Source: Synechococcus sp. CBW1108 | GTDB taxonomy: Bacteria > Cyanobacteriota > Cyanobacteriia > PCC-6307 > Cyanobiaceae | Length of the DNA: 64,000 nt | Reading direction: 5' to 3' | Assembly (NCBI RefSeq): GCF_015840335.1 | Contig: NZ_CP060395.1 | Location: forward strand, 248,001-312,000 | Part shown: piece after piece, positions 44,030-57,150 of the stretch | Position numbering within the stretch: the stretch's first letter is position 1 | How the letters are laid out: each line of letters starts with the position of its first letter | Program-made: the position numbers and the translations under genes | Notes under the pieces: generated by a model | Told to the model about the DNA's origin: nothing | Databases searched by the model: none | The model's input: the letters and a program-made list of their open reading frames with translations, nothing else

Positions 44030-44482
44030 TCACTCCCCAAGCAGGTGACAGGCGATCCGGCGCTGTTGGGGTGATGCCCTGTGCTCCCAGAGATAGACAG
44101 CTTGCCAGGTGCCGAGCACGAGCCGACCACGGTCGAAGCTAAGTTGCAGGCTGGTGGTGGTTAGGGCCGTGCGGATGTGGGCCGGCATGTCGTCGGGGCC
44201 CTCGTCATCGTGGGCGTAGGGCCGCAGCTCGCCGCGGCCGCTGATCGGCCGCACCCCCTCCTGGGGCACCAGGGCCCGCAGATAGGCCGCCAGATCCTCC
44301 AGCACCCGGGGGTCGGCGTTCTCATTCACCGTGAGCGAGCAGCTGCTGTGGAGACAGACCAGGGCCGCCAGCCCCTGCTGCAAGCCGCTGGCGGCGATCT
44401 CGGCGTCAAGAGCGGCGGTGATGTTGATGAAGCCTTCGCCGCGGGTGGCGAGGCTGAGCATCTGTAGGTGTTGACGCAGCAC
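44030..44482 (-). CDS. YjbQ family protein (UPF0047)
   Basis: A 150-residue protein of the YjbQ/UPF0047 family; some members have been reported with weak thiamine-phosphate synthase activity. Signature segments are LVCLHSSCSLTVNENADPRVLEDLAAYL, then AHDDEGPDDMPAHIRTALTTTSL, then LGTWQAVYLWEHR. These include the metal-binding His and Asp. The GTG at 44482 starts at the usual N-terminus just before MLSLATRGEGF. The gene is divergent from the DCC-family gene. Confidence 0.88.
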   Translation of the reverse strand: MLRQHLQMLSLATRGEGFINITAALDAEIAASGLQQGLAALVCLHSSCSLTVNENADPRVLEDLAAYLRALVPQEGVRPISGRGELRPYAHDDEGPDDMPAHIRTALTTTSLQLSFDRGRLVLGTWQAVYLWEHRASPQQRRIACHLLGE

Positions 44483-44610
44483 GGCCCTGCTCCTCTGGGC
44501 ACCCTGCCTAGCATCAGGCCAGCCACCGCCGTTCCGATACGGGTTCCCTTGCACAAGTCCCTGCTGCTGCTTGCTCTCGCCCACGGCAGGGCCTGCCGCA
44601 ATAAGTGGTG

Positions 44611-45057
44611 ATGACGGAAACACTTATTGCCGCATCTTCCACGGCTGCGCCAGGCCTCACGCTGCTCTATGACGGCGGCTGCCCGCTCTGCCTGCGGGAG
44701 GTGCGGTTTCTGGGGGCGCGCGATCAGCGCCTCCACGCCGCATCGCCCCGGCTCACCTTCGTCGACATCGACGCCCCGGACTACGACCCCGGCGCCCACG
44801 CTGGCATCAGCTACCGCGAGGCGATGGGGCGCATCCACGCCATCACCGGCAAGGGGCAGGTACTGCGCGATGTGGCCGTATTCCGGGAGGCCTACAGGCT
44901 GGTCGGCCTGGGCTGGCTGTATGCGCCCACCGCCTGGCCTTTACTGGGTTCGCTGGTGGAGCAGGCCTACGCCCTCTGGGCCGACTGGCGCCTGCGCCTC
45001 ACCGGACGGCCCAGCCTCGACCAGCTCTGCCAGCAGCGCTGCCGCCTGCCTGAATGA
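44611..45057 (+). CDS. DCC family protein (DUF393)
   Basis: A 148-residue protein of the DUF393/DCC family with the thioredoxin-like motif DGGCPLCLREV, in which Cys-Pro-Leu-Cys is the characteristic pair. DCC proteins are called thiol-disulfide oxidoreductase-like, but biochemistry is scarce. Later elements are FVDIDAPDYDP, IHAITGKGQVLRDVAVF and a hydrophobic C-terminal helix. GTGs at 44605 and 44608 precede the chosen ATG at 44611. It is divergent from yjbQ. Confidence 0.88.
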   Translation: MTETLIAASSTAAPGLTLLYDGGCPLCLREVRFLGARDQRLHAASPRLTFVDIDAPDYDPGAHAGISYREAMGRIHAITGKGQVLRDVAVFREAYRLVGLGWLYAPTAWPLLGSLVEQAYALWADWRLRLTGRPSLDQLCQQRCRLPE

Positions 45058-45419
45058 GTCCGCGGCGCATCTCCTGGGCCATGTAGCCCGAGAACTTCAC
45101 TGCAGATAGGCAGGAGTGGCTTGGGTGGATGGTGCCTTCGCGGGCAGTTCCATCAGCCCTGATTTGGCGTTACACAAACATAGACCTGGGCAAGGTATAA
45201 GCATGGATCAGCTCGCCAGGAGCAAGAATGCAAGCTCTGCAGATATGTATGTCCCACTGGAGCTTTCCATCCCCCTGCCATCAATGTGCAGGCCGAAAGT
45301 GAACTCGCCCTTTCGCCTTAACACCCAGCCGTTGAACTCTTTCAGGTGTCATCGATTCTGTACAGCTGTACGGAAACAACGACAGTGCCAATGCGCCTCC
45401 TCAACCTCATTGCGCGCAA
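45058..45419. other. Intergenic stretch with no recognised gene
   Basis: Between the DCC gene and the small minus-strand gene I see no convincing protein frame (the plus-strand frame at 45116-45454 overlaps a likely real minus-strand gene and is unlike known proteins). No tRNA, clear terminator or long repeat was recognised. Confidence 0.55.
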
Positions 45420-45620
45420 TCACGCTGCCTGCTGCTCCTGCTGCTGGCCGATGAGATCCCACAGGTGCCGGTAGGCGTCTGTTTGCTCCTGCGTCCAAAC
45501 CTTGAATTTGGTGCGGCGGCGGGCAGCAAAAGCCAGGTCATTGTGGTTTCTGGGCACCCGGTCGGTGTCGAGCCTCAACATCTTCAATGCAGAAACCGTG
45601 ATCGGGTTGAGCTTCGCCAT
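45420..45620 (-). CDS. Small uncharacterised basic protein
   Basis: A 66-residue protein from ATG at 45620. The sequence MAKLNPITVSALKMLRLD then AARRRTKFKVWTQEQTDAYRHLWDLIGQQQEQQAA suggests one or two helices with a basic middle. A frame extends upstream to 45656 but the ATG is preferred. No family recognised. It stands between two intergenic stretches and is not clearly part of an operon. Confidence 0.58.
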   Translation of the reverse strand: MAKLNPITVSALKMLRLDTDRVPRNHNDLAFAARRRTKFKVWTQEQTDAYRHLWDLIGQQQEQQAA

Positions 45621-45789
45621 CGCGCTGCCTCCTGGCTGGTGCGTTTCGCCCACCAAAGCGTCGGATCAGGCCTGCTTCAAGCGTCTGACGCAGATCTGCA
45701 GCATGGTCATCACATCATTTGAGAAACATATGGGGGGCCGTCGGTAGGTGGCCCTCCGTAGCATCAGACAACCCGCTTGCCAGCTCCCC

Positions 45790-46038
45790 ATGCCAGCCCG
45801 TCGCGTACTGCTTTCCCTTCTCGTTGTGATCCCTGGCTTGGGCTGGAGTTCGCCGCCAGCCCAGGCCCAGCGCCAGGTGCCCAAGATCGGCAGCATCTGC
45901 CCCCTTGGCTACGTGGACATGCTCAACGGCAAGTGCAGCACCCTCGGCCTGATGACCTACACGGTTCAACCCACCAAGGGCGAGGCCTGCCCCGAGGGCT
46001 GGATGAACGTGGGGGGCGGCTACTGCCGCAAAAAGTGA
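45790..46038 (+). CDS. Small secreted Cys-containing protein
   Basis: An 82-residue protein with a signal peptide (RRVLLSLLVVIPGLGWSSPPAQAQ). The mature part has four Cys in CPLGY, KCST, CPEG and YCRK, spaced as in small disulfide-bonded exported proteins of picocyanobacteria. The ATG at 45790 is chosen because it begins directly at the signal peptide; an ATG upstream is not needed. Its convergent partner is the photolyase-family gene 57 bases away. Confidence 0.72.
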   Translation: MPARRVLLSLLVVIPGLGWSSPPAQAQRQVPKIGSICPLGYVDMLNGKCSTLGLMTYTVQPTKGEACPEGWMNVGGGYCRKK

Positions 46039-46094
46039 GCCCTCCAACGGCCCCCACTCGCGGAAAGTTGCAGCGGACAGTTGCAGCCAAGGGC

Positions 46095-47651
46095 TCAGCC
46101 CAGATCCAGGCCCAATTGATCTATCCCGGAATACATGCCCCCGGTGGAGCGGGATCCGGATGGACGGCTGCTGGCCCGAAGGCCCGAGCGCCGCGAGCCA
46201 TGGCGCTGCTGAATCGCAGCGGCCGTGGCGGCAAATCCCTGCTGGTGCCGCAGGGCCCAGAGCCGCTCGCGGGCCGTGGCCGCCGCAGAGGCCCAGTCGA
46301 CAATCGGTTGGGGATAGTCGGCGCCAAGCGCCCAGCCCAGCCGCTCCTGGGTGGCCCCATCCATCATCCAGGGTTGGTGCAGAAACACCGCCGGCACCGC
46401 CGCCAGCTCGGGCAGCCAGCGGCGAATGAACAGGCCATCGGGGTCGTGATCGACACCCTGCTTGATCGGGTTGTAGATGCGGATCGTATTGATGCCGGTG
46501 GTGCCCGACTGCATCTGGCACTGACTCCAGTGGATTCCCGGTTCGTAATCAACGAATAGCCGGGCCAGGTGCAAGCCGCTGTCGCGCCAGGGCAGCCAGA
46601 GCTGGTAGCTGGCCACCGACACCAACATGGCTCGCATGCGGAAGTTGAGCCAACCGGTGGCGATCAGGGCCCGCATGCAGGCATCCACAAAGGGCAGGCC
46701 CGTCCGCCCTGCGGCCCAGGCCGCCAGGCGCTCGTCGCTGCCCGGGCCCTCCCGCTCGCGCAGGCCCGCGGTGAGGGGATGGAGCTCCTGAAACTCCAAA
46801 CTCGGCTGGCTCTCCAGCTTCTGGATGAAGTGGCAGTGCCAGTGCAGGCGCTCATCGAAGCGCTGCAGAGCCCGGCGCCAGGAGACCGCCGTGAGCAACT
46901 GGCGCCGCTGGCGATTCCCCTGCACCACCTCCCGCAGCGACAGGGTGCCCCAGCTCAGGTGGGGAGAGAGCCGCGAACAGCTGGCAAAGGCCGTGTTCGG
47001 ACTCGACAGGCCGCTCTGGTAGGCGCGACTGCGCCGATCTAGAAAACTCTCCAGCAGCGCCAGCCCCTGGGGGCGGCCGCCAAGCTGGCGCCCCGGGCAG
47101 GGATCCGGCACCAGGGCGAGCTCCTCAGCGCTGGGAATGGCACCGGGATCCAGGCCAGCCAAAGGCTCCAAGCGCAGTGGCGCCGGAGCGATCGGCTCGG
47201 CCATGCGCTCCTCCCACCGGCGCGCCCAACCCTGGCGCTGCGCCAGGCGACGACTGACCCCGAACTGGGGGATCTCGTGCCACCTGATGGCGTGCTGCCG
47301 GGCCCAGGCCGCGACCCGCAGGTCGCGGGCGTAGGTCCAGCCATTGCCGGTTTCCTGATGACTCCAGAGGCCGCCGATGCCGAATTGGCGCCGGGCCCGC
47401 TCGAGCACCTGCTCCACCACACCGACCCGCACCACCAGGGGTTGGCCCAGGCGGGCCAGGGCAGAGCGCAGCTCCAGCAAACTTTCGCGGCAGAACAGCC
47501 ATTGGCGAGCCGAACTGTCAGGCTGCTGCCAGTAGTCCGGCTCCACCACATAGAGGGGCAGCAGGGCTCCGTGCCGGCTGGCCTCCAGCAGGGGGAGGTG
47601 ATCTGCAGGGCGCAGATCCCGCTTAAACCACACTATTTGTAGCCCATTCAC
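46095..47651 (-). CDS. Cryptochrome/photolyase family protein
   Basis: A 518-residue flavoprotein of the cryptochrome/photolyase family. The N-terminal antenna domain starts LQIVWFKRDLRPADHLPLL. The FAD domain includes TAFASCSRLSPHLSWGTLSLREV, LHWHCHFIQKLE, GRTGLPFVDACMRALIATGWLNFRMR and IRIYNPIKQG with the Asn facing the flavin in related enzymes. Where class I photolyases have a W-QW-ASTG-D stretch, this protein has HWSQCQMQSGTTGIN, so activity may differ. The start is GTG at 47651. It may be a repair enzyme or a light sensor. The C-terminal 30 residues are Ser/Arg-rich. Confidence 0.85.
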   Translation of the reverse strand: MNGLQIVWFKRDLRPADHLPLLEASRHGALLPLYVVEPDYWQQPDSSARQWLFCRESLLELRSALARLGQPLVVRVGVVEQVLERARRQFGIGGLWSHQETGNGWTYARDLRVAAWARQHAIRWHEIPQFGVSRRLAQRQGWARRWEERMAEPIAPAPLRLEPLAGLDPGAIPSAEELALVPDPCPGRQLGGRPQGLALLESFLDRRSRAYQSGLSSPNTAFASCSRLSPHLSWGTLSLREVVQGNRQRRQLLTAVSWRRALQRFDERLHWHCHFIQKLESQPSLEFQELHPLTAGLREREGPGSDERLAAWAAGRTGLPFVDACMRALIATGWLNFRMRAMLVSVASYQLWLPWRDSGLHLARLFVDYEPGIHWSQCQMQSGTTGINTIRIYNPIKQGVDHDPDGLFIRRWLPELAAVPAVFLHQPWMMDGATQERLGWALGADYPQPIVDWASAAATARERLWALRHQQGFAATAAAIQQRHGSRRSGLRASSRPSGSRSTGGMYSGIDQLGLDLG

Positions 47652-47738
47652 AACTGAAAACCCGCTTTAGAACTGGCTCCCAGACTGAGCCTGATCGAGC
47701 CTGACCGATCAGTCCAAGCTAGTTTTGCGCGCAGCAGC

Positions 47739-48915
47739 ATGGCCAAGGGCTGGAGCCTGCGAGAAGAACGGGGCCAGGTGCGGCTAGAGATGCGTCAGCC
47801 GCACCGCCCACGCGCCTCGGTGCTGTTGCCATTCCAGTGGAGCCGCCAGGACGTTGGGGCCATTTTGGCGAGGGTCCGCAACATCTATGTGCTGACACTC
47901 GACGAGCATGATCTGTCCGCAGCCGCCCAGATCGCTTCTGGCAAAGCGCTCCGAAGCCTGAGCACCTGGGAAGAGGCGCTAGAGCATTTCCGCGAGTTCA
48001 AGCTGCATCACGGCACCGCGATCAATCCCCGCACCTGGCAGCGCTACGACCAGGTTCTGCAGATGGTCATCCAGCTGATGACCATGCCCGACAAGCCCCC
48101 CCCGATTGACAGTGCCTCTCTGATCGACGCCTGCGTGAAGGACTGGCCACCGGGAATCCGGCAGCGTGAGGTCCGCGTTCAGTACATCGCCCAGTTCCTG
48201 CGCTTCTGCCGTGATCAAGAGCATTTCCCAGTGCAATGGCATCCTCCGACAGACCTGAAAGCCCAAATAGGCAGCCCCACCCAGGACCCTGCACCGGGCC
48301 ATATGAAGGGCAGTCCATTGAGCGATCAGGAAATTCTCGATCTGATTTATAGCCTTCCCGTAAACGAGGCGGGTCTGCGTTGGCGCGATGCGCTGCGATT
48401 GATGGCTGAACTGGGACTGCGGCCGTTGGAATTGCGCTACATGTCGGTCCGCAAGCATCACACCACTGGTGAGTTGATCTGGTGCTGCGACTACCGCAAA
48501 CGTGCGGGTGTGGGTATGACGTGCGGGCGTGGGCATGACAAAGCCCCGTCGTGCCTTTGCCCTCCCCCTGATGCATCAGGGTGGTGAACTGGTGCGTTGG
48601 AACCTGCTGGAGCGCTGGAATGCAGGATTGCTACAGCTGCCACCGCTGGGATCAACCCAACGCGTGAGCCGCACTGCCACCACCTACCTCTATAAGAAAC
48701 CCTGCTGGATCAGCCTGAAGCAACGGGCAGCAGCCAGAGGAGAGAGGGCTGTGATCTACAGCTTCCGTCACTCCTTCAGCCTGCGGGGTAATCAGCGCGG
48801 CAACGAGCCCGGCAGCATGGCTGGGGCAATGGGCCAAACCCAGGCCGTTCATCCACGCAGCTACCCCTGGGCATCCGAACAGACCACCGCATCGGCCTTT
48901 GCTCGGGCATCAGAG
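47739..48915 (+). pseudogene. Tyrosine-type integrase, frameshifted
   Basis: The first frame (47739-48587) has an N-terminal SAM-like domain (about residues 60-160) and the catalytic Arg box LRLMAELGLRPLELRYMSVR. The second frame (from 48529) continues with YSFRHSFSLRGNQRGNEPGSMAGAMGQTQAVHPRSYPWA, containing the second Arg and the catalytic Tyr. The frames are joined by an imperfect 19-bp tandem duplication that shifts the phase. Removing one copy restores YRKRAGVGMTKPRR, the expected sequence. So it was a phage- or island-type recombinase and is now broken. The remnant ends near 48915. Confidence 0.85.
48502..48539 (+). repeat. 19-bp tandem duplication that frameshifts the integrase
   Basis: Copies at 48502-48520 and 48521-48539 (GTGCGGGTGTGGGTATGAC and GTGCGGGCGTGGGCATGAC) differ at two positions, both T versus C. 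Nineteen is not a multiple of three, so the frame changes. Confidence 0.85.
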
Positions 48916-48954
48916 TCAATCAGTCCCGCAGAGGCGTTCAATAAGGTCACGCCC

Positions 48955-49419
48955 TATTGCACAGCCGTAAGCGGACCTGCCGCTCGCCCCATGCCGCTGC
49001 CGCTGCTCTGTTTGTCGAGCACATGCCCTTTGCAGCAATTCTCCGCCAACTTCGCCAGTCCCACCGGCTACCGTAGAGAAGACCTAAAGCAACTGGCGGC
49101 GATCGGACTGATTAAGGCCTCACGCCGCTACGACAGCAAGCAGGTGAATCGCAGCAGCTCCAACTTCAGCGCCTACGCCAGACCATTTGTGAACGGCGAG
49201 ATCACCCACTACCTGCGCGATAAGGGCTTTCTGATTTCGGTGCCAGGCCGCTGCCAGGAGCTGCATGCCAGGGGGCAGAAGTTGCTGCGGCAGGGCATAC
49301 CCGCCGATCAGATCCCCAAGCAGTTGGGGCCAATACCAGAGCGCTGGGCTGAGATTGCAGCGGCCTGCTCAGTGCGGGTGGTGGCGATGGCTTCCCCATA
49401 CCAGGAATTCGAGCACTAA
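48955..49419 (+). pseudogene. Truncated sigma-70 family factor remnant fused to integrase tail
   Basis: The open frame starting at 48529 continues past the integrase tail into sequence of a cyanobacterial group 3-like sigma factor. Region 2 appears as TGYRREDLKQLAAIGLIKASRRYD and FSAYARPFVNGEITHYLRDKGF, then LISVPGRCQELHARGQKLL and ERWAEIAAACSVRVVAM, which is region 3. Region 4 is missing. Upstream, the natural N-terminal sequence (LFVEHMPFAA) sits in another frame, so a frameshift lies near 49020-49040. The stop overlaps the toxin gene. I consider it decayed. Its boundary with the integrase is approximate. Confidence 0.65.
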
Positions 49420-49946
49420 ACCTCCTGGGCTTGCTTGAGAACCGCTGCCACCAATGCATCACTGAGGTAATAGCCCTGATCCCGCAGTGCATCTAGCAGA
49501 GGCGAACAAACCCTCACCAGGCCCCGTTCCTTTGCAAGCACAAGCACCGCAGCGGTGCCAATGATTGCCAGCCCCTGCTTTCGGGCTTCTGCGCGGCCGC
49601 AGCGGTCGTCTACTACCAAAAGAACCGACTGGCCGCCAGCCTGCTGGTTCAGGGCCAAGCCAATGGCGCTGGCCTCGCCTCCATCCACCCCGGGATTGAG
49701 CGGCCGATATGGATCAACGCCCTGCGCCAGAGCTGGCGCGATCTGCAGCCAGCCTTGCTCAAAGGCTCCCTGAAGTGACTCCACGCCTGGAAAGGCCGGG
49801 GTTCCCGCAGCGGCAGTCCCTAGGCCGATTTCTGCCGCGATTACCTCAGTGATCCAGACCTGGCCAAACAACCCAGCTAGTAACCCAAGCTGATCGATGC
49901 GGGCCAGTCCAATCAGCGGGCCCGCATCAGCAATCACAACCTTCAT
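49416..49946 (-). CDS. DUF3368 PIN-like toxin of a type II TA pair
   Basis: A 176-residue protein of the DUF3368 family, a PIN-like ribonuclease fold. The N-terminal VIADAGPLIGLARI carries the first acidic residue of the active site; another acidic region is DGGEASAIGLALNQQAGG and VDDRCGRAEARKQG. DUF3368 genes usually follow a UPF0175 antitoxin, and one does: it ends 12 bases before this start. RNase toxicity is inferred from the family. Both genes appear intact, unlike their surroundings. Confidence 0.85.
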   Translation of the reverse strand: MKVVIADAGPLIGLARIDQLGLLAGLFGQVWITEVIAAEIGLGTAAAGTPAFPGVESLQGAFEQGWLQIAPALAQGVDPYRPLNPGVDGGEASAIGLALNQQAGGQSVLLVVDDRCGRAEARKQGLAIIGTAAVLVLAKERGLVRVCSPLLDALRDQGYYLSDALVAAVLKQAQEV

Positions 49947-49958
49947 CAGTGCTGGCCG

Positions 49959-50309
49959 TCAGGGGTGCTCGCCAAACCAGCGACGTGCTGCAGCCAGATC
50001 GGCATCCAGTTCACCCTGCTCAGCGTCCACAACAGGGATCTTTAAAGAGGAGAGGATTTCCAGGAAACGAGGCAGGGGCAGCCCGGCGATTTGTGCTGCT
50101 GCTCCAACCGAGATCGAACCAGAGCGAAACAGAGACAGCGCCAGCCCCGAGCGCACCGCTGCCGTATCGGGTAGGCCCAGTCGGTCCAGTGCCACCACTA
50201 AGGCGGTGGGTTGCTGGTAGCTGGTCACCAAAGCCATGGCGTCAGCTTCTGCAGCCTTGAGGACTGTGGAAGGGTTGCTTTTGAGCTGGCGCACCGAAAA
50301 AGCCTGCAT
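49959..50309 (-). CDS. Phd-like/UPF0175 antitoxin of the TA pair
   Basis: A 116-residue protein that reads as two parts. Residues 1-41 (MQAFSVRQLKSNPSTVLKAA then VTSYQQPTALVVALD) look like a Phd/YefM-type antitoxin DNA-binding strand and helix. Residues 53-95 (RSGLALSLFRSGSISVGAAAQIAGLPLPRFLEILSSLKIPVVD) match UPF0175, a helix-turn-helix antitoxin family. Upstream ATG at 50309 was chosen; a longer frame to 50444 runs into noncoding sequence. It precedes the PIN-like toxin by 12 bases, as antitoxins usually do. Confidence 0.8.
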   Translation of the reverse strand: MQAFSVRQLKSNPSTVLKAAEADAMALVTSYQQPTALVVALDRLGLPDTAAVRSGLALSLFRSGSISVGAAAQIAGLPLPRFLEILSSLKIPVVDAEQGELDADLAAARRWFGEHP

Positions 50310-50425
50310 GATGTTCCTACGTGCTGTAGGCATTCTGCTGGGTTGGCTGCGAAATGGTGAAGTTCTCTCCTGGTTTAGGGAGGTCTTGGAGGCTGGCCGC
50401 GAGGCGGTGCTCTCCCTGCTCATAC

Positions 50426-50848
50426 ATGCTTCGGGTCGCTGCAACTGTCATCATCCCGACCCGGAACCGGGCCGATTAGATCGATGGCTGCCTCGGCGCC
50501 CTGGCCTGCCAATTCTTTGAACCCGGTTCGTTCGAGGTCGTTGTCGTCGACGATGGGAGTGACTCACCCTGACCTTCGATCCAAGACGTTGGTCGACGGC
50601 TTTCGCCTTGACCATCATCCGCCAGGAGAACAGCGGCCCCGGGGGAGCCCGAAACAGCGGCGTCGAGGCATGCCGTGGCGACCATCGTCGCGTTCACGGA
50701 CGATGATTGCCCTCCCGAGTCAAGCTGGCTCGAGATGCTCGTGACCGCGGTCAGGGCGAACCATGACGCACTGGTCGGTGGCTCGACCATGAACGGATTG
50801 CCGGAATCGCTGTTCGCCGAGACGAGTCAGTTGATCATCAATCTCGTT
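50426..50848 (+). pseudogene. Family 2 glycosyltransferase, decayed 5' part
   Basis: Translation from ATG at 50426 begins RVAATVIIPTRNRAD, the GT-A GT2 start, then stops (TAG at 50477). The same frame continues as IDGCLGALACQF and FEVVVVDDGSDSP, then another stop. After a frame change follows TIIRQENSGPGGARNSGVEACRGD. A further change gives VAFTDDDCPPESSWLEM with the DxD-type metal motif, and DALVGGSTMNGLPESLFAETSQLIINLV. Several stops and shifts show it is dead. The right side is cut by the IS at 50849. Confidence 0.85.
50841..50848 (+). repeat. Target site duplication, left copy
   Basis: ATCTCGTT directly precedes the left inverted repeat of the IS and is repeated exactly at 51879-51886 after the right inverted repeat. 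Confidence 0.9.
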
Positions 50849-50894
50849 CTTGATTACCCAGCTCGCTCCGCGCACCGCGAGCCTGGGCCGTAGA

Positions 50895-50912
50895 CTGGTA
50901 CGCACATACCAG
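50895..50912 (+). promoter_or_regulatory. Inverted repeat just before the transposase start
   Basis: CTGGTA CGCACA TACCAG forms a perfect 6-bp stem with a 6-base loop seven bases before the transposase ATG. It could limit translation or be a regulator site. Confidence 0.5.
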
Positions 50913-50919
50913 TTCAGTC

Positions 50920-51873
50920 ATGGCGCGCAACGTCATCCAGTTCCAGAAAGGCCTTTCACTGCCTGACTTCCAGCGGCTCTACGGCACCGAGGTGCAATGT
51001 GAGGCTGCTTTGGAGAAGGCGCGCTGGCCCGGTGGGTTCCGCTGTCCCCGCTGCAATGGCCATGAGCATGGGCTGGTCTATGGCCGCAGGCTCAAGCGCT
51101 ATCAGTGCCGCAGCTGCGGCCATCAGGCCACGCTCACGGCTGGCACGATCATGCAGGCCACGAAATTGCCTCTGACCACCTGGTTTCTGGCCTTTTACAT
51201 GATCGGGCAGGCCAAAACAGGGATCTCCTCGCTGGAGCTCAGCCGCCACCTGGGCGTGAACTACGACACCGCCTGGCTGCTGCACCACAAGATTCTGCGG
51301 GCGATGGCTGATCGGGAGGAGGCTTACCTGCTGCGGGGAAAAGTCCAGATCGATGATTCCTACCTCGGCGGAGAACTGCCGGGCGGCAAGGCAGGTCGGG
51401 GTTCAGAGAACAAGATCCCCATCGTCGCGGCCGTCTCCTTGAATGAGGCGGGCCGGCTGATTCACGCCAGGATCACAGCCGTGAGTGGCTTCAGCTCAGA
51501 GGCCATCGCTGAGTGGGCCAAGCGCCATCTGGCGCCCGGCAGTCAGGTGCTCTCCGATGGCCTGGCCTGCTTTCGTGCCGTGACCACGGCAGGCTGCAGC
51601 CATCACGCCATCGTCACCGGTGGGAAGCACCCAAACGACTTGCCGCAGTTCCGTTGGATCAACACCGTGCTGGGCAACCTCAAGACCGGCTTCAACGGCA
51701 CCTTCCACGCTTTCAATTTCGACAAGTACGCCAGGCGCTACCTGGGCGGCTTCTGCTTCCGGTTCAACCGGCGCTTCTCGATGGTTGCGATGACTGATCG
51801 CATTGCCAATGCGGTCTGTTGCTGCATGCCCTGCACGGAGCGGGATCTCAGGGTTGCGGAGGCTTATGGGTAA
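50920..51873 (+). CDS. IS1595 family transposase
   Basis: A 317-residue transposase. An N-terminal zinc ribbon has CPRCNGHEHGLVYGRRLKRYQCRSCG with two Cys pairs. The catalytic domain contains the first Asp in VQIDDSYLGGELPGG, the second Asp in VLSDGLACFR, and the NLKTGFNGTFHAFNFDKYARRYLGGFCFRFNRRF block that carries the remaining catalytic site. The gene fills almost the whole element; its TAA lies inside the right inverted repeat. Intact frame and perfect target duplication suggest recent insertion. Confidence 0.95.
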   Translation: MARNVIQFQKGLSLPDFQRLYGTEVQCEAALEKARWPGGFRCPRCNGHEHGLVYGRRLKRYQCRSCGHQATLTAGTIMQATKLPLTTWFLAFYMIGQAKTGISSLELSRHLGVNYDTAWLLHHKILRAMADREEAYLLRGKVQIDDSYLGGELPGGKAGRGSENKIPIVAAVSLNEAGRLIHARITAVSGFSSEAIAEWAKRHLAPGSQVLSDGLACFRAVTTAGCSHHAIVTGGKHPNDLPQFRWINTVLGNLKTGFNGTFHAFNFDKYARRYLGGFCFRFNRRFSMVAMTDRIANAVCCCMPCTERDLRVAEAYG

Positions 51874-51878
51874 TCAAG

Positions 51879-51886
51879 ATCTCGTT
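51879..51886 (+). repeat. Target site duplication, right copy
   Basis: Identical to 50841-50848. Confidence 0.9.
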
Positions 51887-51928
51887 TATGAGCACTTCAA
51901 CGCGAATCCGCGCACGCCTTTTTACAGC
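51879..51928 (+). pseudogene. Family 2 glycosyltransferase, 3' remnant after the IS
   Basis: Begins with the second target copy ATCTCGTT and continues YEHFNANPRTPFYS, joining the 5' part when the IS is removed. I cannot follow glycosyltransferase similarity past about 51928. Confidence 0.6.
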
Positions 51929-52040
51929 ATCCTCCATTTGGGCTGCTGCCGTGCAAGCCGCCGTGGGGCCCGGGGCAATGCAGGTAAGACTGGGAGCCCT
52001 GGAGCTTCCTGGACCCTACCTGAGCAGCTAGACCAACGCC

Positions 52041-52463
52041 ATGGGAACCCTTCTCCAACCCTTACTGCTGATCGTCAGCCTGGCCCTGTTCCACCTGGTA
52101 GGCCCGGTGCCGCCCGAGCTGGGCGTGCACAACGGAGCCCTGGCGCCCTGCCCGTCGCCGGCCCACTGCGCCCGGGCTGACTGGGCCGTGGCCGATCCTG
52201 ACTCCGCCCTGGCGCTGCTGGTGACCGTGGTGCAGGCCATGCCCCGAACCACGCTGGTGGAGCAAGGCGATGGCTACCTACATGCCACCGCCAGCAGCGC
52301 CCTGTTTGGCTTTGTCGACGACCTGGAGCTCTATGCAGACCAGACCCGGGGCCAGCTGCAGGCCAGGTCGGTGTCCCGCAGCGGCGATTCCGATCTGGGG
52401 GTGAATGGTCGCCGGCTTGCGCGCCTGGAACAGGCCCTTAACCAGGCCCTTGCCCAGCCCTAA
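52041..52463 (+). CDS. DUF1499 domain protein
   Basis: A 140-residue protein with an N-terminal membrane or signal segment (LLQPLLLIVSLALFHLVG) and a soluble DUF1499 domain. Family-like elements are AMPRTTLVEQGDGYLHATASSALFGFVDDLELYAD and SVSRSGDSDLGVNGRRLARLEQAL. Function of DUF1499 is unknown, though it is widespread. It is the first intact core gene after the accessory region, and its stop overlaps the GH57 stop convergently. Confidence 0.85.
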   Translation: MGTLLQPLLLIVSLALFHLVGPVPPELGVHNGALAPCPSPAHCARADWAVADPDSALALLVTVVQAMPRTTLVEQGDGYLHATASSALFGFVDDLELYADQTRGQLQARSVSRSGDSDLGVNGRRLARLEQALNQALAQP

Positions 52464-53938
52464 TTGCTGAGTAATTCCATGCCACGCCGGTGAATTTCTC
52501 TGGCGTAGTCGGTCCAGGTGCCCTGGCCCCAGTAGCGAAAGCAGCTTGTTTGCAGCAGCAGCAAGTGCAGCAGGCACTGCTGGTAGGCCGGGGTTTGGGT
52601 CAGGGCAGGGTCGGCCGCCACCAGGGGGTCGAAATGCCCGTGGAAGCGGGCGCTCAGCTGGTTGATCGGCTCGAGCACGTTGGCGTATCCCTCCACCCAG
52701 CTGAGGTTGTTGGTCCAGGAAGCCCCGGCCATTGAGAAGGAGGGATCGGCGGCCTGGAGCTGGGCAATGGCGGCCTGAACCGCTGCTGCCCCGGGCGGTT
52801 CGGAGCTGCCCTGGGGATCGAGCAGGGGCCAGAGCTTGTGCTGCTGCACCGCCTGAATCACCGGGAAGGCGGTGCTGTTTACCCCTGCCCCCTCGAGCAA
52901 CTCCAGGTACTCGCTGCCATTGATCGCCACGGTTTTACTTTCCTCAGCCGTATTGCTGGCGATGCGCTGGTGGGCCTGGATGAAAGCAGCAGGGAACTCG
53001 TTCATCATCACGCCGCCATTTTCGCCGTCGGCGATTTGACACACCAACGCCGGAATGGTGCCGGCGCCCAGGGGCTGGCGGCCGAGGCCAAGGGCCTCGT
53101 AGCAGGGCTGCATCTGACCCACCAGCTTGGTGTCGGAGCCCTGGGTTTTGATCAGGGCGGTGATGCTCACCGTGTCGCCGCTGGAGTTGCGGGCCACCAG
53201 GCGGTTGGGGATCAGGGTTTGCTCCCGGCTGAGGCTGGAGCCATCGGGATTCTCAACGCTGTGCTCCTGCACCAGCAACCAGCGGTAGCCACACTCCCCC
53301 AGGGCCTTGACAAGGGCATAGAGAGTGTCGGGGTGGTTGGGCAGGTGCATCTCCGGCGGCGAAAAACCCTTCACCCGTTGCAGGGCCTCGGGGCCAAACA
53401 GGGCTGCGAAATGGTGCTGCCAGGCCAGGATCTGCAACTTGAGATCGGGGATCGGCGTGGAGGGGGCCACCGCATGGCTCCAGAAGGTGCCGAGCCACTC
53501 CACATGGGGCTGCAGGCTCGGGTCGCAGGCGAGGGTTTTAAGGGCACTGAGGATGTCCTGGCGGCCCATCTGCTCGAAACCCCAAAGCAAATTGCCCGAA
53601 TAATCGAGCATGATCCGGGGATTGCAACCCTCGCCGATCAGCTGGGGAATGATCTCGGCAAGCCTTTTGTAGCAGTTGGCAAAGGCATCGGCGTTGTGGT
53701 TGTCACCCTCGCCCGGGTGCTCATACATGTATTGCAGATGGGAGATCAGCTCTCCGTTGGACCCGGCTGGAATCGAGGGCTGATGCATGTGGAGCGCACA
53801 GGCAAAAGCTGAATGGATCTGCTCCAGCTGGAGATTGGAGTGGGGAGCAAACACCGCTCCTGGCAGTTGCACCAAGGCAAGGATCTCCGCCTCATGGCCC
53901 GCGATCGGAGGGAGGCTGGGTCTGGGACTGGGGGGCAT
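52460..53938 (-). CDS. Glycoside hydrolase family 57
   Basis: A 492-residue GH57 protein, a retaining alpha-glucanase/transferase family. Family segments include FACALHMHQPSIPAGSNGELISHLQYMYEHPGEGDNHNADAFANCYKRL and ALVKALGECGYRWLLVQEHSV. The ADGENGGVMMNEFP region contains a conserved acidic motif. In cyanobacteria some GH57 members are branching enzymes or 4-alpha-glucanotransferases; the precise activity cannot be set here. It fits a glycogen remodelling context with glgA and glgB. The start is ATG at 53938. Confidence 0.88.
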   Translation of the reverse strand: MPPSPRPSLPPIAGHEAEILALVQLPGAVFAPHSNLQLEQIHSAFACALHMHQPSIPAGSNGELISHLQYMYEHPGEGDNHNADAFANCYKRLAEIIPQLIGEGCNPRIMLDYSGNLLWGFEQMGRQDILSALKTLACDPSLQPHVEWLGTFWSHAVAPSTPIPDLKLQILAWQHHFAALFGPEALQRVKGFSPPEMHLPNHPDTLYALVKALGECGYRWLLVQEHSVENPDGSSLSREQTLIPNRLVARNSSGDTVSITALIKTQGSDTKLVGQMQPCYEALGLGRQPLGAGTIPALVCQIADGENGGVMMNEFPAAFIQAHQRIASNTAEESKTVAINGSEYLELLEGAGVNSTAFPVIQAVQQHKLWPLLDPQGSSEPPGAAAVQAAIAQLQAADPSFSMAGASWTNNLSWVEGYANVLEPINQLSARFHGHFDPLVAADPALTQTPAYQQCLLHLLLLQTSCFRYWGQGTWTDYAREIHRRGMELLSN

Positions 53939-53974
53939 GGCAGGGGTGGGGGAGGTCAGCTTGCGACAGGGGGG

Positions 53975-54262
53975 ATGGACATCCCGCTGTTGGGCCCCAC
54001 TGGCATTACCTTGCTAGGGCTGATGTTTGCGATCCTGCCCTGGTGGGTGACCCAGCGTGCTGCCGATCCGATGAGCCCCCTGTTTCCCTGTTGCAGTTGT
54101 GGAGTGCAAATTGAGCGCTCGATCAAGCTATACCGACAGCGCAAGGGCAAGGTGCTTTGCTCCACTTGCCAGGACAGGGCTGAAGCCCTACAGGCCAAAG
54201 AGGCGGGAAGACCGGACCCCGGAGAAACCGGGGCCTCAAAAGTAGTAAAAGAAATCAGCTGA
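53975..54262 (+). CDS. Small membrane-linked Cys protein
   Basis: A 95-residue protein. One hydrophobic N-terminal segment (GPTGITLLGLMFAILPWWVT) is followed by a possible zinc ribbon-like motif: PCCSCGVQIERSIKLYRQRKGKVLCSTCQDRAEAL (CxxC...CxxC). The C-terminus is Glu/Gly-rich. The ATG at 53975 has a G-rich ribosome-binding stretch immediately upstream. The gene faces divergently away from GH57 and convergently toward the cyAbrB gene. No family name recognised. Confidence 0.7.
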   Translation: MDIPLLGPTGITLLGLMFAILPWWVTQRAADPMSPLFPCCSCGVQIERSIKLYRQRKGKVLCSTCQDRAEALQAKEAGRPDPGETGASKVVKEIS

Positions 54263-54294
54263 GGCAGCCAGAAGCCAGCCTGGCTGGGACTATA

Positions 54295-54666
54295 TCACTC
54301 CTCTTCGTCAGCCCCACCGATGGGTACGAGCTTGATCTGCTTGCGGCCCAGCTTGATCTCAAATTCATCCCCGGGCTTGAGGTCGAGCATGGCGGTGTAG
54401 GCCTTGCCCACCAGCAGGTTGCCGTTGAACTGAATTTTTGTGGTGTAGCTCAGCTTGCGACCACCCTTGCCCGTACCCCTGCCAACACTATCGGTGCCAA
54501 GGCTTACACCCTTGGCACCGAGCAGGGCCTCGTAAAACGCCGTGAAATTGAGGCGCTCGCTACCATCTTTCTTAGTGCTCACATAGCCACAGCTACGGAC
54601 CAGATCTGATTTGGACACATCACCCAGCTCTTTGACCTTGGCGAGCAATTCGGAGCCTGTAAGCAT
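54295..54666 (-). CDS. Cyanobacterial AbrB-type regulator (cyAbrB)
   Basis: A 123-residue DNA-binding protein of the cyAbrB family, which regulates carbon/nitrogen balance genes in cyanobacteria. The conserved N-terminal domain GSELLAKVKELGDVSKSDLVRSCGYVSTKKDG and NFTAFYEALLGAKGVSLG is characteristic; the C-terminal AbrB-like part is IQFNGNLLVGKAYTAMLDLKPGDEFEIKLGRKQIKL. The ATG at 54666 was chosen over a TTG at 54684. I cannot separate cyAbrB1 from cyAbrB2. Confidence 0.9.
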   Translation of the reverse strand: MLTGSELLAKVKELGDVSKSDLVRSCGYVSTKKDGSERLNFTAFYEALLGAKGVSLGTDSVGRGTGKGGRKLSYTTKIQFNGNLLVGKAYTAMLDLKPGDEFEIKLGRKQIKLVPIGGADEEE

Positions 54667-54861
54667 GTGAAGTAGTTCGCTCAAGCCAAATAGTAGCAGC
54701 AGACCGCAGCAATTTGGTGATTATTGGTACTGATTGGACCCACCCAACTGACCCCAGCAAGCAAGCATGCGCACCCGAGCCGAACTATTGCCAGCCAAAA
54801 TGAGACCCTCCTCCAGCCGCTGAAACCGTAGGGATTGGTGGATGCTCGGCCCCAAGCCCCC

Positions 54862-55089
54862 TCACTTGCCACACTCTCTTTTAATCAAAAAGTAGAGATG
54901 GGAAGGATCACCGTACCGGTAGGGCAGGGCCTCATGCAGAGAAGAAAGGCGCCGCCAGCAGACGCTGCGGCGGATCTGGTTGATTGTCCTCTCCTCAAGG
55001 ACGAGGATACGAAGCGCCTTGCAATAGATCGAAAAACTTGTCTCCAGTTCAGCAATTGTGAGGTCAGTGGTAAAAGTTAGCTGACTCAT
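54862..55089 (-). CDS. Uncharacterised small protein
   Basis: A 75-residue protein from ATG at 55089, rich in Leu, Arg and Ser, beginning MSQLTFTTDLTIAELETSF with a helix that follows (YCKALRILVLEE). It looks coding-like: it starts with a good ATG and lies alone between the cyAbrB and aldose epimerase genes. No family recognised. Confidence 0.5.
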   Translation of the reverse strand: MSQLTFTTDLTIAELETSFSIYCKALRILVLEERTINQIRRSVCWRRLSSLHEALPYRYGDPSHLYFLIKRECGK

Positions 55090-55155
55090 GGCACCAACAT
55101 GGCAACGACGTCGTGGTCACCATGCAGATTCGACCAGCACCCCCAATTGCGTGAA

Positions 55156-55171
55156 GCCCCCGTTTGGGGGC
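55156..55171 (-). terminator. Candidate hairpin after the mutarotase gene
   Basis: GCCCCC GTTT GGGGGC forms a perfect 6-bp stem eight bases beyond the mutarotase stop. No T-run follows on that strand, so it is only a possible terminator. Confidence 0.4.
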
Positions 55172-55179
55172 AGTTGAAC

Positions 55180-56043
55180 TCAGGAACCTGTTGATGCCGT
55201 AAAGGCATAGCGAGTTCCGAGCCTGGTGCTGGCGCCCGGGCTCAATTCGAGCTTGCGATCCCCGCTGATCAGGGCCTGACGCGGCCCACTCCAGGGTTCC
55301 ATGCACACCATCGGCCGGGGCGGCTCCGTCCAGAGCACCACCAGATCCAGCGGGTGGCTGAGCTGGAGCTCAAGGCTAGTGCCGGCGCCAGTATCCACCA
55401 GCCGCACCGAACCTGTGGGTTTGACCAGCAGGTCGATGCCACTGGCCAACCGTTCCATCTGTTCGGCACTGGAGGCCCCCTCCATGGTGAGGTGGTTGAG
55501 ACACTGGGGAGGTAAGCCCTCAAACCGCACCGTCTCCAGGCTGGAAAGGTTGAAGTAGGGGTGCAGCCCGAAGCTGAACGGCATCACTTCGCTGCTCCGG
55601 TTTTGCACCACCGTGCTGATCTCCAGCGCCCCTGGCGCCAGCCGCACCTCCATGCTGAGCAGAAAGTTGAACGGATAGGCCTTCAGCGTTTCGGGGTTAT
55701 CTGACAACTGCAGCTGGACCCCCAGTCCATCGGCGAGGGGCTCCAGCTGCCAGGGCATCTGCCTGGCGAAGCCATGCTGGCCGAGACTGAATTCACCCTG
55801 GGGCAAGGGCAGCAGATTGCCCGGCAGACCGCCGGTGATCGGGAACAGCACCGGGAATCCACCCCGCACCGATTGAGCAGGGTCGAGAAAGCGCTCCAGA
55901 TCGAGGTAAACAACCTCATGGCCGGCGCAGCGCCAGCCGCTGATCAGGCCGCCGCGGTCGGGCACGATCCGCAGCAGGTCCCCCGTGGCCGAATCGCTGA
56001 ATTCCCAGTGGGGATAGGGCGTTTGACGCTGAATCAAGGCCAT
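55180..56043 (-). CDS. Aldose 1-epimerase family protein
   Basis: A 287-residue galactose mutarotase-like protein (aldose 1-epimerase / YeaD-type). Characteristic segments are GGFPVLFPITGGLPGNLLPLPQGEFSLGQHGFARQMPW with a His, FGLHPYFNL with the second His, and PLDLVVLWTEPPRPMVCMEPWSGP with the Glu near the end. Some family members work on glucose-6-phosphate. The ATG at 56043 is the best start; a longer frame to 56109 is not needed. Operon partners are not evident. Confidence 0.88.
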   Translation of the reverse strand: MALIQRQTPYPHWEFSDSATGDLLRIVPDRGGLISGWRCAGHEVVYLDLERFLDPAQSVRGGFPVLFPITGGLPGNLLPLPQGEFSLGQHGFARQMPWQLEPLADGLGVQLQLSDNPETLKAYPFNFLLSMEVRLAPGALEISTVVQNRSSEVMPFSFGLHPYFNLSSLETVRFEGLPPQCLNHLTMEGASSAEQMERLASGIDLLVKPTGSVRLVDTGAGTSLELQLSHPLDLVVLWTEPPRPMVCMEPWSGPRQALISGDRKLELSPGASTRLGTRYAFTASTGS

Positions 56044-56133
56044 GCGACTCCATCTTGGTCTGGGATGGGCATCAATCTGCCTGAAAGGGCCAGCAATGGA
56101 TGCCCCCAAGGGGGAACAGTCAGATTTGAACTA

Positions 56134-56829
56134 TCAGATTTGAACCATGCCGCAGCGCATTCCTTTGAGCACGGCCTGCAGCCGGTTGTGCACGTTGAGG
56201 GTCTGCAGCAGCCGCTTGGTGTAGGTGTGGGCCGTTTCATCACTGACTACAAGCCGTTTGGCGATCTGGCGATCGCTGAGGCCACTGGCGAGCAGGTCGA
56301 GCACCTCGTATTCCCGCGGCGTTAGCCGGGGGCAACTCAGGTAGGGCAGGATGCCCGTGCGCAGGGAGGGGCTGCGGTAGGAGTGGCCGCCCAGCACCGC
56401 CATCACCGCGGCCTGCAGTGGTTGCTGGTCATCGACAAAGTCAGCTTCTGCCACAACGGCCTCCAACCAGGGGGCATCAAGGCATTCGGCAGGGATCGAA
56501 TCCCCCAGGGCTAACACCACGGCATGGATGCGGGGGTGGAGCTCCCGTGCCTGGCGCACCAGGTCAAAACCGCTGCCGCTCTCGAGGTAGTCGGTGCAGA
56601 TCAGCAGTTGGTAAGGATCCCCAGCTTCCACAGCCAGGTAATCGAGACAGCTCTGTTGATCGGTGACCGCACAGGTGATCCGGGAGTAGCCCCCGAAGCT
56701 GCGGCAAAGGGCCCGCAGCATGAAGCGACCCTTTGCCGCCACCGCAATGCGGCCAGGAATCTCAATCGACTCCAACCCTTCCTCCTGGGCCCCATGGCCG
56801 CCATTGGTCAGAAATTGGGTGAGATCCAT
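56134..56829 (-). CDS. LuxR/NarL-type regulator with degenerate receiver
   Basis: A 231-residue protein: residues 26-145 resemble a receiver domain and residues 165-225 are a LuxR helix-turn-helix (RLTPREYEVLDLLASGLSDRQIAKRLVVSDETAHTYTKRLLQTLNVHNR). The receiver lacks the usual acidic pair after strand one (RIAVAAKGRF) and the conserved Lys near residue 133 (ADFVDDQQ), while one Asp remains (ICTDYLESGSG, D80). It is thus probably not controlled by ordinary phosphorylation. The ATG is at 56829. Target genes unknown; the CP12-like gene is its nearest upstream neighbour. Confidence 0.85.
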   Translation of the reverse strand: MDLTQFLTNGGHGAQEEGLESIEIPGRIAVAAKGRFMLRALCRSFGGYSRITCAVTDQQSCLDYLAVEAGDPYQLLICTDYLESGSGFDLVRQARELHPRIHAVVLALGDSIPAECLDAPWLEAVVAEADFVDDQQPLQAAVMAVLGGHSYRSPSLRTGILPYLSCPRLTPREYEVLDLLASGLSDRQIAKRLVVSDETAHTYTKRLLQTLNVHNRLQAVLKGMRCGMVQI

Positions 56830-56931
56830 TCTCCTGCGGTTGACCTGGCTGCGGTTGACCCTGGCTGGGGAGGCGAAGGGGGCCAAGCCAACCCTAGGAG
56901 TTGCGAATCCTGACCGGGAAGCAATTGCTAC

Positions 56932-57150
56932 TCAGTCGTCGTAGACGAGGCAGTTGATGTCCGAGGGGTTGAGGTCGCAGAACACCTCCAGCGGTGAGGG
57001 CGCAACGGCCTCATCGGGGTGGCGTTGCTGGAAATCCTCTAGGTCTTTGATTTGCTGTTCGATCTTGCGCGCGATCGCCTGATCACCCTTGGCCTGGGCC
57101 TCGGCGAGGGCGGTGCGATAGGTCTGGAGCTGGTCTCCGATGGTGGCCAT
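56932..57150 (-). CDS. CP12-like protein, short
   Basis: A 72-residue protein from ATG at 57150. The C-terminus EVFCDLNPSDINCLVYDD (C58, C67) matches the GAPDH-binding tail of CP12, the redox-regulated linker of PRK and GAPDH in the Calvin cycle. The N-terminal half is an amphipathic helix (ALAEAQAKGDQAIARKIEQQIKDLE), but the usual N-terminal Cys pair and the AWD-VEEL motif are absent. It is therefore a CP12-like variant, perhaps binding GAPDH only. An upstream frame to 57201 is less likely. Confidence 0.78.
   Translation of the reverse strand: MATIGDQLQTYRTALAEAQAKGDQAIARKIEQQIKDLEDFQQRHPDEAVAPSPLEVFCDLNPSDINCLVYDD

Follow-up and report, generated by a model that had tools for sequence, protein, structure and literature searches.

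An open frame across two pseudogenes of a decayed prophage in Synechococcus sp. CBW1108, and a related family of short sigma factors that may read late promoters with a -10-like element alone

Judged from its sequence, the 296-codon open reading frame that joins an integrase tail to a sigma factor in the window (the whole stretch of DNA analysed, 64,000 nucleotides of Synechococcus sp. CBW1108) is no gene: two pseudogenes of a decayed prophage happen to be read through as one frame. Its sigma portion comes from a family of short proteins, here called mini-sigmas, which in intact prophages would act as late sigma factors on promoters consisting of a -10-like element only, in a manner resembling gp55 of phage T4. 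To this explanation as a whole, the relic together with the late sigma, we assign a probability of roughly 0.65.

The frame is present in the ORF list and translation of the window, at 48529-49419 on the plus strand, with a GTG start and 296 aa. A first-pass annotation had described it as running continuously from the integrase catalytic boxes into sigma regions 2 and 3, and frame, boxes and NCBIfam matches all agree with that description. Residues 1 to ~130 resemble the catalytic end of tyrosine integrases, with 55% and 52% identity to frames in genomes G003 and G004, respectively, and with the SFRHS..RG and Y boxes common to the window integrase and the aligned homologues; Pfam gave no match for the window integrase at E ≤ 1. 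Residues ~170-290 correspond to sigma-70 regions 2 and 3, and no region 4 is found downstream of the sigma piece. Domain searches upheld the sigma similarity claimed for the C-terminal part (NCBIfam PRK07408 at 3e-17 and SigBFG at 5e-17 for the last 147 aa), while Pfam Sigma70_r2 scored the frame at 23.1 bits, slightly below its 24-bit cut-off. A chance resemblance to sigma factors is out, given the NCBIfam matches to the C-terminal piece and the alignments with homologues.

Both genes are broken (Table 1). The integrase is frameshifted by a tandem duplication (copies at 48501-48519 and 48520-48538) and its stop is missing; in the intact relative L107, the stop falls a few codons past AFARA. 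As had been supposed, a different frame immediately upstream encodes the natural sigma N-terminus, at 48960-49036 in the same frame as the open frame beginning at 47739, and DNA and protein alignments with homologues reveal a 2-base deletion after 49036 that puts the remainder of the sigma into the reported frame. The joint between the two genes (48915-49036, 122 bp) has a chance of ~30-35% of being open, and thus the integrase-sigma fusion requires no selection; ORFs of at least 296 aa number 48 in the window.

Table 1. Features of the inserted block, in window coordinates
Feature	Position	Strand	Evidence
Inserted block holding the relic, ~4.28 kb	47634..51914	.	blastn of window vs L134 (G015), end alignment
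Integrase pseudogene, N-terminal and middle parts	47739..48527	+	tblastn, 53-54% to L010/L107 (G003), 37-39% to L011, L012
19-bp imperfect tandem duplication, integrase frameshift	48501..48538	+	sequence and positions
Integrase pseudogene, catalytic C-terminal part, in reported frame, stop missing	48529..48915	+	searches and alignment
Mini-sigma pseudogene, in two frames	48960..49419	+	alignments (DNA, protein) to L020 and further loci
DUF3368 gene (PIN-like toxin), probably prophage cargo	49416..49946	-	Pfam, 46.8 bits
UPF0175 antitoxin-like gene	49959..50309	-	Pfam, 44.8 bits
IS1595-type transposase within block	50920..51873	+	Pfam DDE_Tnp_IS1595, 1.5e-33

The block that holds the pseudogenes is absent from G015, the closest relative located (its photolyase is 95% identical), in which 35 bp stand in its place between the counterparts of window 44363-47633 and 51915-57057. 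At window 47633-47651 the insertion starts at the extreme 5' end of the photolyase gene, the first codons of which are altered relative to G015. In addition to the features tabulated, the block holds a glycosyltransferase-like scrap (19.7 bits, under its cut-off), and no repeats of at least 8 bp are shared by its two 200-bp ends. The toxin-antitoxin pair matches, in its place and orientation beside the sigma, the cargo carried between sigma and portal in the prophages. Relatives of the DUF3368 protein at 43-44% identity occur in a mini-sigma prophage contig of G001 (43%; ~5 kb past the sigma and outside the sigma-portal interval) and elsewhere in the CBW1108 genome.

Sigma matches of at least 50% identity were found in 9 of 99 genomes, CBW1108 included, among the matches listed. 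CBW1108 itself carries a second, intact sigma copy (67% identity) that lies in an intact-looking prophage (L022). Integrase-plus-sigma neighbours could indeed be located in related genomes: G012, G014, G004 and G050 have both genes on the same strand, separated by 13.4, 14.2, 14.9 and 15.2 kb, respectively, and because four prophages share this arrangement at 13-15 kb, the most fitting reading of the window copy is a prophage relic without its middle. No 15-mer repeat of the tRNA region was detected in these four elements. None of 58 prophage gene clusters (searched with up to three representatives each) had a match in the window beyond the integrase and sigma pieces, and the set of integrase, large terminase, portal, scaffold and major head, found in one element in L036/G014 and in L022 of CBW1108, is absent as a set. 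Since the window has only integrase and sigma pieces, the locus is called a relic and not a prophage, and it is ordinary debris of a known kind. A relic prophage with terL, integrase and sigma has been described before in Synechococcus RS9917 (PMC2784084). Both loci are degraded picocyanobacterial prophages with an integrase and a sigma; the RS9917 relic, however, is reported there as a 42-kb island by tRNA-Ser, whereas the window retains integrase and sigma pieces, a toxin-antitoxin pair and an insertion sequence (PMC2784084).

Several histories of the locus were weighed. A real, expressed fusion of an integrase tail with a sigma has in its favour a single open frame of 296 codons; however, the start of the sigma is read out of frame within this ORF, and the joint would be open by chance at about 0.3. 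Moreover, strong matches listed for the 99 genomes, CBW1108 included, fall on one part or the other and none spans both, those crossing the joint being weak (27-34% identity), and the same fused architecture thus did not turn up elsewhere as a strong match among those listed. On the frameshift alignment and the one-part matches a real fusion gene was rejected, and a fusion protein is extremely improbable. The first-pass annotation had offered two origins for the frame, of which insertion of an element into or near a sigma gene is rejected because the sigma homologues are prophage-linked and G015 lacks the 4.28-kb block in its entirety; the other, the remains of an element that had a sigma of its own, is borne out by the prophage linkage of homologous sigmas. 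Whether the two pieces derive from one prophage turns on the integrase, which belongs to another clade than the integrases of the four sigma-bearing elements, with only ~30% identity to them. Its closest intact relative, L107 (53% over 380 aa), shares a short contig with a major-head gene of the mini-sigma prophage family, head genes there preceding the integrase and not following it. Given the other clade and this order, two relics could have been joined, the integrase of one element and the mini-sigma of another being brought together with no collapse of a single prophage, and this would also fit the lack of any further prophage gene between the window integrase and sigma. Against such a joining, the closest intact relative adjoins head genes of the mini-sigma prophage family, and the four relatives keep the order and strand of integrase and sigma; in addition, phage integrases are often swapped between related phages. 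The joining of two relics is somewhat unlikely, and we favour the collapse of a single prophage, in which the ~14 kb that separate integrase and sigma in relatives would have been lost by deletion and the sequence beyond the sigma and its toxin-antitoxin cargo would likewise have been deleted.

Two further loci are of related interest. Near 3.07 Mb of the CBW1108 genome (G000:C1, L114) lies a 44% relative of the integrase. A primase belonging to the prophage family follows it after 4.6 kb, and the hits of that genome include no mini-sigma match at this place. A decayed copy in G007 (L028/L087, G007:C120, 1784-2349) has a tRNA-Ser followed directly by a mini-sigma without its 5' part, after which come portal and other late genes.

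The mini-sigma family comprises 75 loci in our scans, of which 21 come from viral contigs and the other 54 from named genomes, chiefly of Cyanobium, Synechococcus and Vulcanococcus; the 75 contain near-duplicates such as L032/L033/L053, L034/L055 and L036/L056. In all except two of these loci (L105 and L106, partial matches only), the protein ends no more than ~25 residues after a conserved AC.VRVVA stretch and before any region 4. The description of the window sigma as truncated was therefore right in that it stops before region 4 but mistaken in treating this as damage, since the stop is the normal state of the family (73/75 loci) and the damage consists of frameshifts. A family profile compared with PDB sequences matched sigma2 and sigma3 only (SigB 8x6g, 8e-15), and an intact copy matched NCBIfam SigF/SigBFG at 1e-19 to 4e-21. 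Across five intact homologues, Pfam Sigma70_r2 scored 29-45 bits in three prophage copies, all above the cut-off, and 18-39 in two phage ones. An AlphaFold model built from 53 sequences is helical (pLDDT 83.9, pTM 0.71), with residues 136-148 disordered, and the top PDB matches of the model in Foldseek are sigma factors, at weak scores (best E 2.4e-3). PHROG matches are to other phage sigma families (phrog_36098, 351, 21612). By these comparisons the mini-sigmas of the prophages class as SigB/F/G-type sigma factors with regions 2 and 3, naturally without region 4.

The intact elements share a usual order over the 75 loci: minus-strand early genes, helicase, primase, PD-(D/E)XK nuclease, a terS-like gene (our reading of cluster c8), terL and mini-sigma, followed by variable cargo, portal, c3, c2 (with LysM domains in one form) and scaffold, and farther on by endolysin and major head. 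Calls of the terL cluster were made in 65 of the loci, and of the portal cluster in 58. The interval from sigma to portal measures 37-6971 bp (57 loci), and ORFs in it are mostly on the minus strand (31,246 aa vs 9,591 aa on the plus strand). Ten large cargo proteins, picked from 25 listed, were scanned with PADLOC; four matched defence models at 5e-73 or better (HEC-04, HEC-01A, HEC-06 and AriA), three matched at weak to moderate levels and three had no match, one of these being a transposase. Across L032-L106 the interval is a cargo hotspot, and several of its large genes match antiphage-defence models that include AriA-like and GmrSD.

One such element has been described previously. The prophage locus phiSynAce1 of Synechococcus sp. 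CS-601/SynAce01 (65,524-73,790, 8.2-kb, replication-defective; PMC6337551) contains mini-sigma L079, at ~69,446-69,841 as computed here, and the available part of that description does not mention a sigma (PMC6337551). At L119 (7293-9413) and L118 (CBW1108 genome), nothing recognisable as a tail gene follows major head, and four proteins past the head gene of L119 have no PHROG match and are possibly unrecognised tail parts. Capsid-forming satellites are one possible identity for these elements, and phages with unfamiliar tail proteins another.

The late genes of these prophages are preceded by a candidate promoter motif. GGCAA[ATG][AG]G occurs upstream of the portal gene in 51/57 loci against 1.95 expected (the largest of 100 shuffles gave 6), and the surrounding DNA is otherwise variable cargo. 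In 31 of these sites the spacing to the called start is 28-32 nt, and in the remaining 20 it differs; the genes were called by a simple script, so that start positions are approximate. Counted over distinct upstream regions, [CT]GGCAAN[AG]G precedes portal (46/53), scaffold (31/34) and major head (8/10), and precedes none of terL (0/54), c2 (0/44), c5 (0/32), helicase (0/26) or primase (0/23). It was also found before c13 (14/16), c19 (7/8), c3 (21/42), c12 (8/18) and sigma (13/67), several of these sites, not all, being judged to lie within coding DNA. The strict form GGCAATAG precedes portal in 19/53, head in 7/10, scaffold in 8/34 and sigma in 0/68. Deduplication gave 40 distinct site contexts, 53 distinct portal upstreams and 34 diverged portal sites. 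In the last of these the motif core carries 1.0-2.1 bits and A occurs at +13 in 32/34, and no -35 appeared, with no position from -60 to -5 above 0.27 bits. We take the GG...A/TA form of the motif to resemble a -10 element, and GGCAATA presumably resembles the -10 of the Bacillus sigma-F type. The prophage and phage patterns were both read off the same data in which they were counted.

Relatives of the mini-sigma occur in cyanosiphoviruses. Among 80 phage records searched by tblastn, S-CBS2, S-CRES1-3 and P-SS2 match it; S-CBS2, S-CRES1 and P-SS2 have the order terS-terL-sigma, with sigmas at 31-36% identity to it. The P-SS2 protein has been described as a group 3 (type III) sigma likely reading a particular regulon, and the promoters listed in the available part of that report are of the sigma-70 type only (Sullivan et al. 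2009, PMC2784084). This group 3 sigma and its relatives in S-CBS2 and S-CRES1 fall in the SigB/F/G branch of the mini-sigma, directly after terS-terL (protein as described in PMC2784084). In the terL-linked sigmas of these phages, Pfam at E ≤ 0.1 found region 2 and not region 4, while the S-CBS3 sigma has regions 1.2, 2 and 4 above the Pfam cut-off; Pfam likewise missed region 4 in the RpoD-like sigma that S-CBS2 and P-SS2 each have as their second one. The terL-linked proteins are 206-244 aa long, longer than the prophage ones, with a tail in which no region 4 is recognised, and that of S-CBS2 aligns to position 199 of the 258-position SigF profile. Because of this length, this alignment and the failure of Pfam to see region 4 in the RpoD-like sigmas, the absence of region 4 is less firm than in the prophages, and the phage proteins may contain a diverged region 4. 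Two sigmas per phage were observed (GU936714 gp061/gp077; GQ334450 2091/98987; OQ587939 gp7/gp20), one RpoD-like in the early region and one adjoining terL, which suggests a middle/late division of labour.

The phage motif GG[ACT]ANNCTA was derived from a repeated element noticed in S-CBS2, and once P-SS2 had been viewed the pattern was relaxed to admit G, the narrow form having been counted for 20/55 genes in the structural part of S-CBS2 and 1/40 in P-SS2. At 26-37 nt before annotated starts, GG[ACT]ANNCTA has 50 sites in S-CBS2, S-CRES1 and P-SS2 where under 1 is expected: 19 in S-CBS2 (101 starts; 0.34 expected by position), 18 in S-CRES1 (111 starts; 0.31) and 13 in P-SS2 (113 starts in the first 100 kb; 0.12). 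Phages without a terL-linked sigma had none in place, namely S-CBS3 (46 starts), S-CBS1 (43) and S-CBS4 (62, first 50 kb). The striking aspect is this placement and not the whole-record count, which was higher than in every shuffle for two stretches only, the structural half of S-CBS2 and the final third of S-CRES1, and fell below the shuffle mean in P-SS2. No -35 is visible in 52 phage sites, and the prophage motif GGCAA[CT]AG has no site in place in the six phage records.

From the sequence patterns we infer that the mini-sigma reads the motif, and the sites are most likely late promoters with a -10-like element and without a -35, as for the T4 gp55 type. Late in infection the mini-sigma would displace the host sigma on RNA polymerase, dock by its region 2 and read a -10 element starting with GG (GGCAANRG in the prophages, GG[ACT]ANNCTA in the related phages), contact with a -35 being unneeded; the portal, scaffold and head operons would then start from promoters made of a -10-like element alone. 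The known precedent is gp55 of T4. This small protein, a diverged form of sigma2, acts at late promoters lacking a -35, in company with the sigma4 mimic gp33 and the clamp (PMC2988020). Like the mini-sigma, gp55 is a small member of the sigma family without a sigma4 domain, and its late promoters have no -35. The two differ in that gp55 is a highly diverged sigma2, whereas the mini-sigma is of the SigB/F/G type with sigma3, and in that gp55 has gp33 and the clamp as partners, for which the mini-sigma has no known counterpart (T4 features as described in PMC2988020). The proposed likeness is one of working, and we do not class the mini-sigma as a gp55 homologue.

It is possible, though unlikely, that the motif is read by another factor (a regulator of the phage, or the host sigma aided by an activator from the phage) and that the mini-sigma does something else, such as competing for core polymerase. 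The link between sigma and motif is one of sequence, and S-CBS2 and P-SS2 do possess a second, RpoD-like sigma; however, all three phages that have a terL-linked sigma carry the motif in place and the three that lack one do not, two of the latter have a full RpoD-like sigma, and the missing -35 signal fits a sigma without region 4. Even less probable is that the motif is a packaging site, an operator or a translation signal, and not a promoter. Its fixed spacing of ~28-32 nt to start codons would equally fit a signal at the RNA level, but it stands before several separate late genes in each phage, it is absent near the starts of terL, helicase and primase, and its form presumably marks it as -10-like. 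We thus prefer the reading in which the mini-sigma itself recognises the motif as a late promoter.

We lean towards a broader proposal for the lineage of cyanosiphoviruses and Cyanobium-group prophages, in which the SigB/F/G sigma without region 4 encoded after terL would be a dedicated -10-only late sigma and a second, apparently independent solution to the problem solved by gp55, with a site for antiphage-defence cargo located after the sigma gene and ahead of the earliest of the late promoters. No description of a terL-linked late sigma without region 4 and of -10-only promoters was found in the open-licence literature; this system appears to be a hitherto undescribed form of a familiar type, and the window prophage relic is of a known kind. 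The debris in the window nonetheless points to a sigma family for which, in the available part of the P-SS2 report, a group 3 regulon was predicted and not located (PMC2784084). Because there are many candidate promoters, each short and in a precise position, late-gene control in both temperate and lytic cyanosiphoviruses is open to experiment, and such work bears on whether a sigma that has only regions 2 and 3 is enough for a cyanobacterial core polymerase to initiate transcription when no -35 is contacted.

A sigma gene was also seen in the record of Microcystis phage MaAM05 (MW495066), where ribosomal proteins, ispH and trpS are annotated around it, and the stretch looks like host or other bacterial DNA, not phage.
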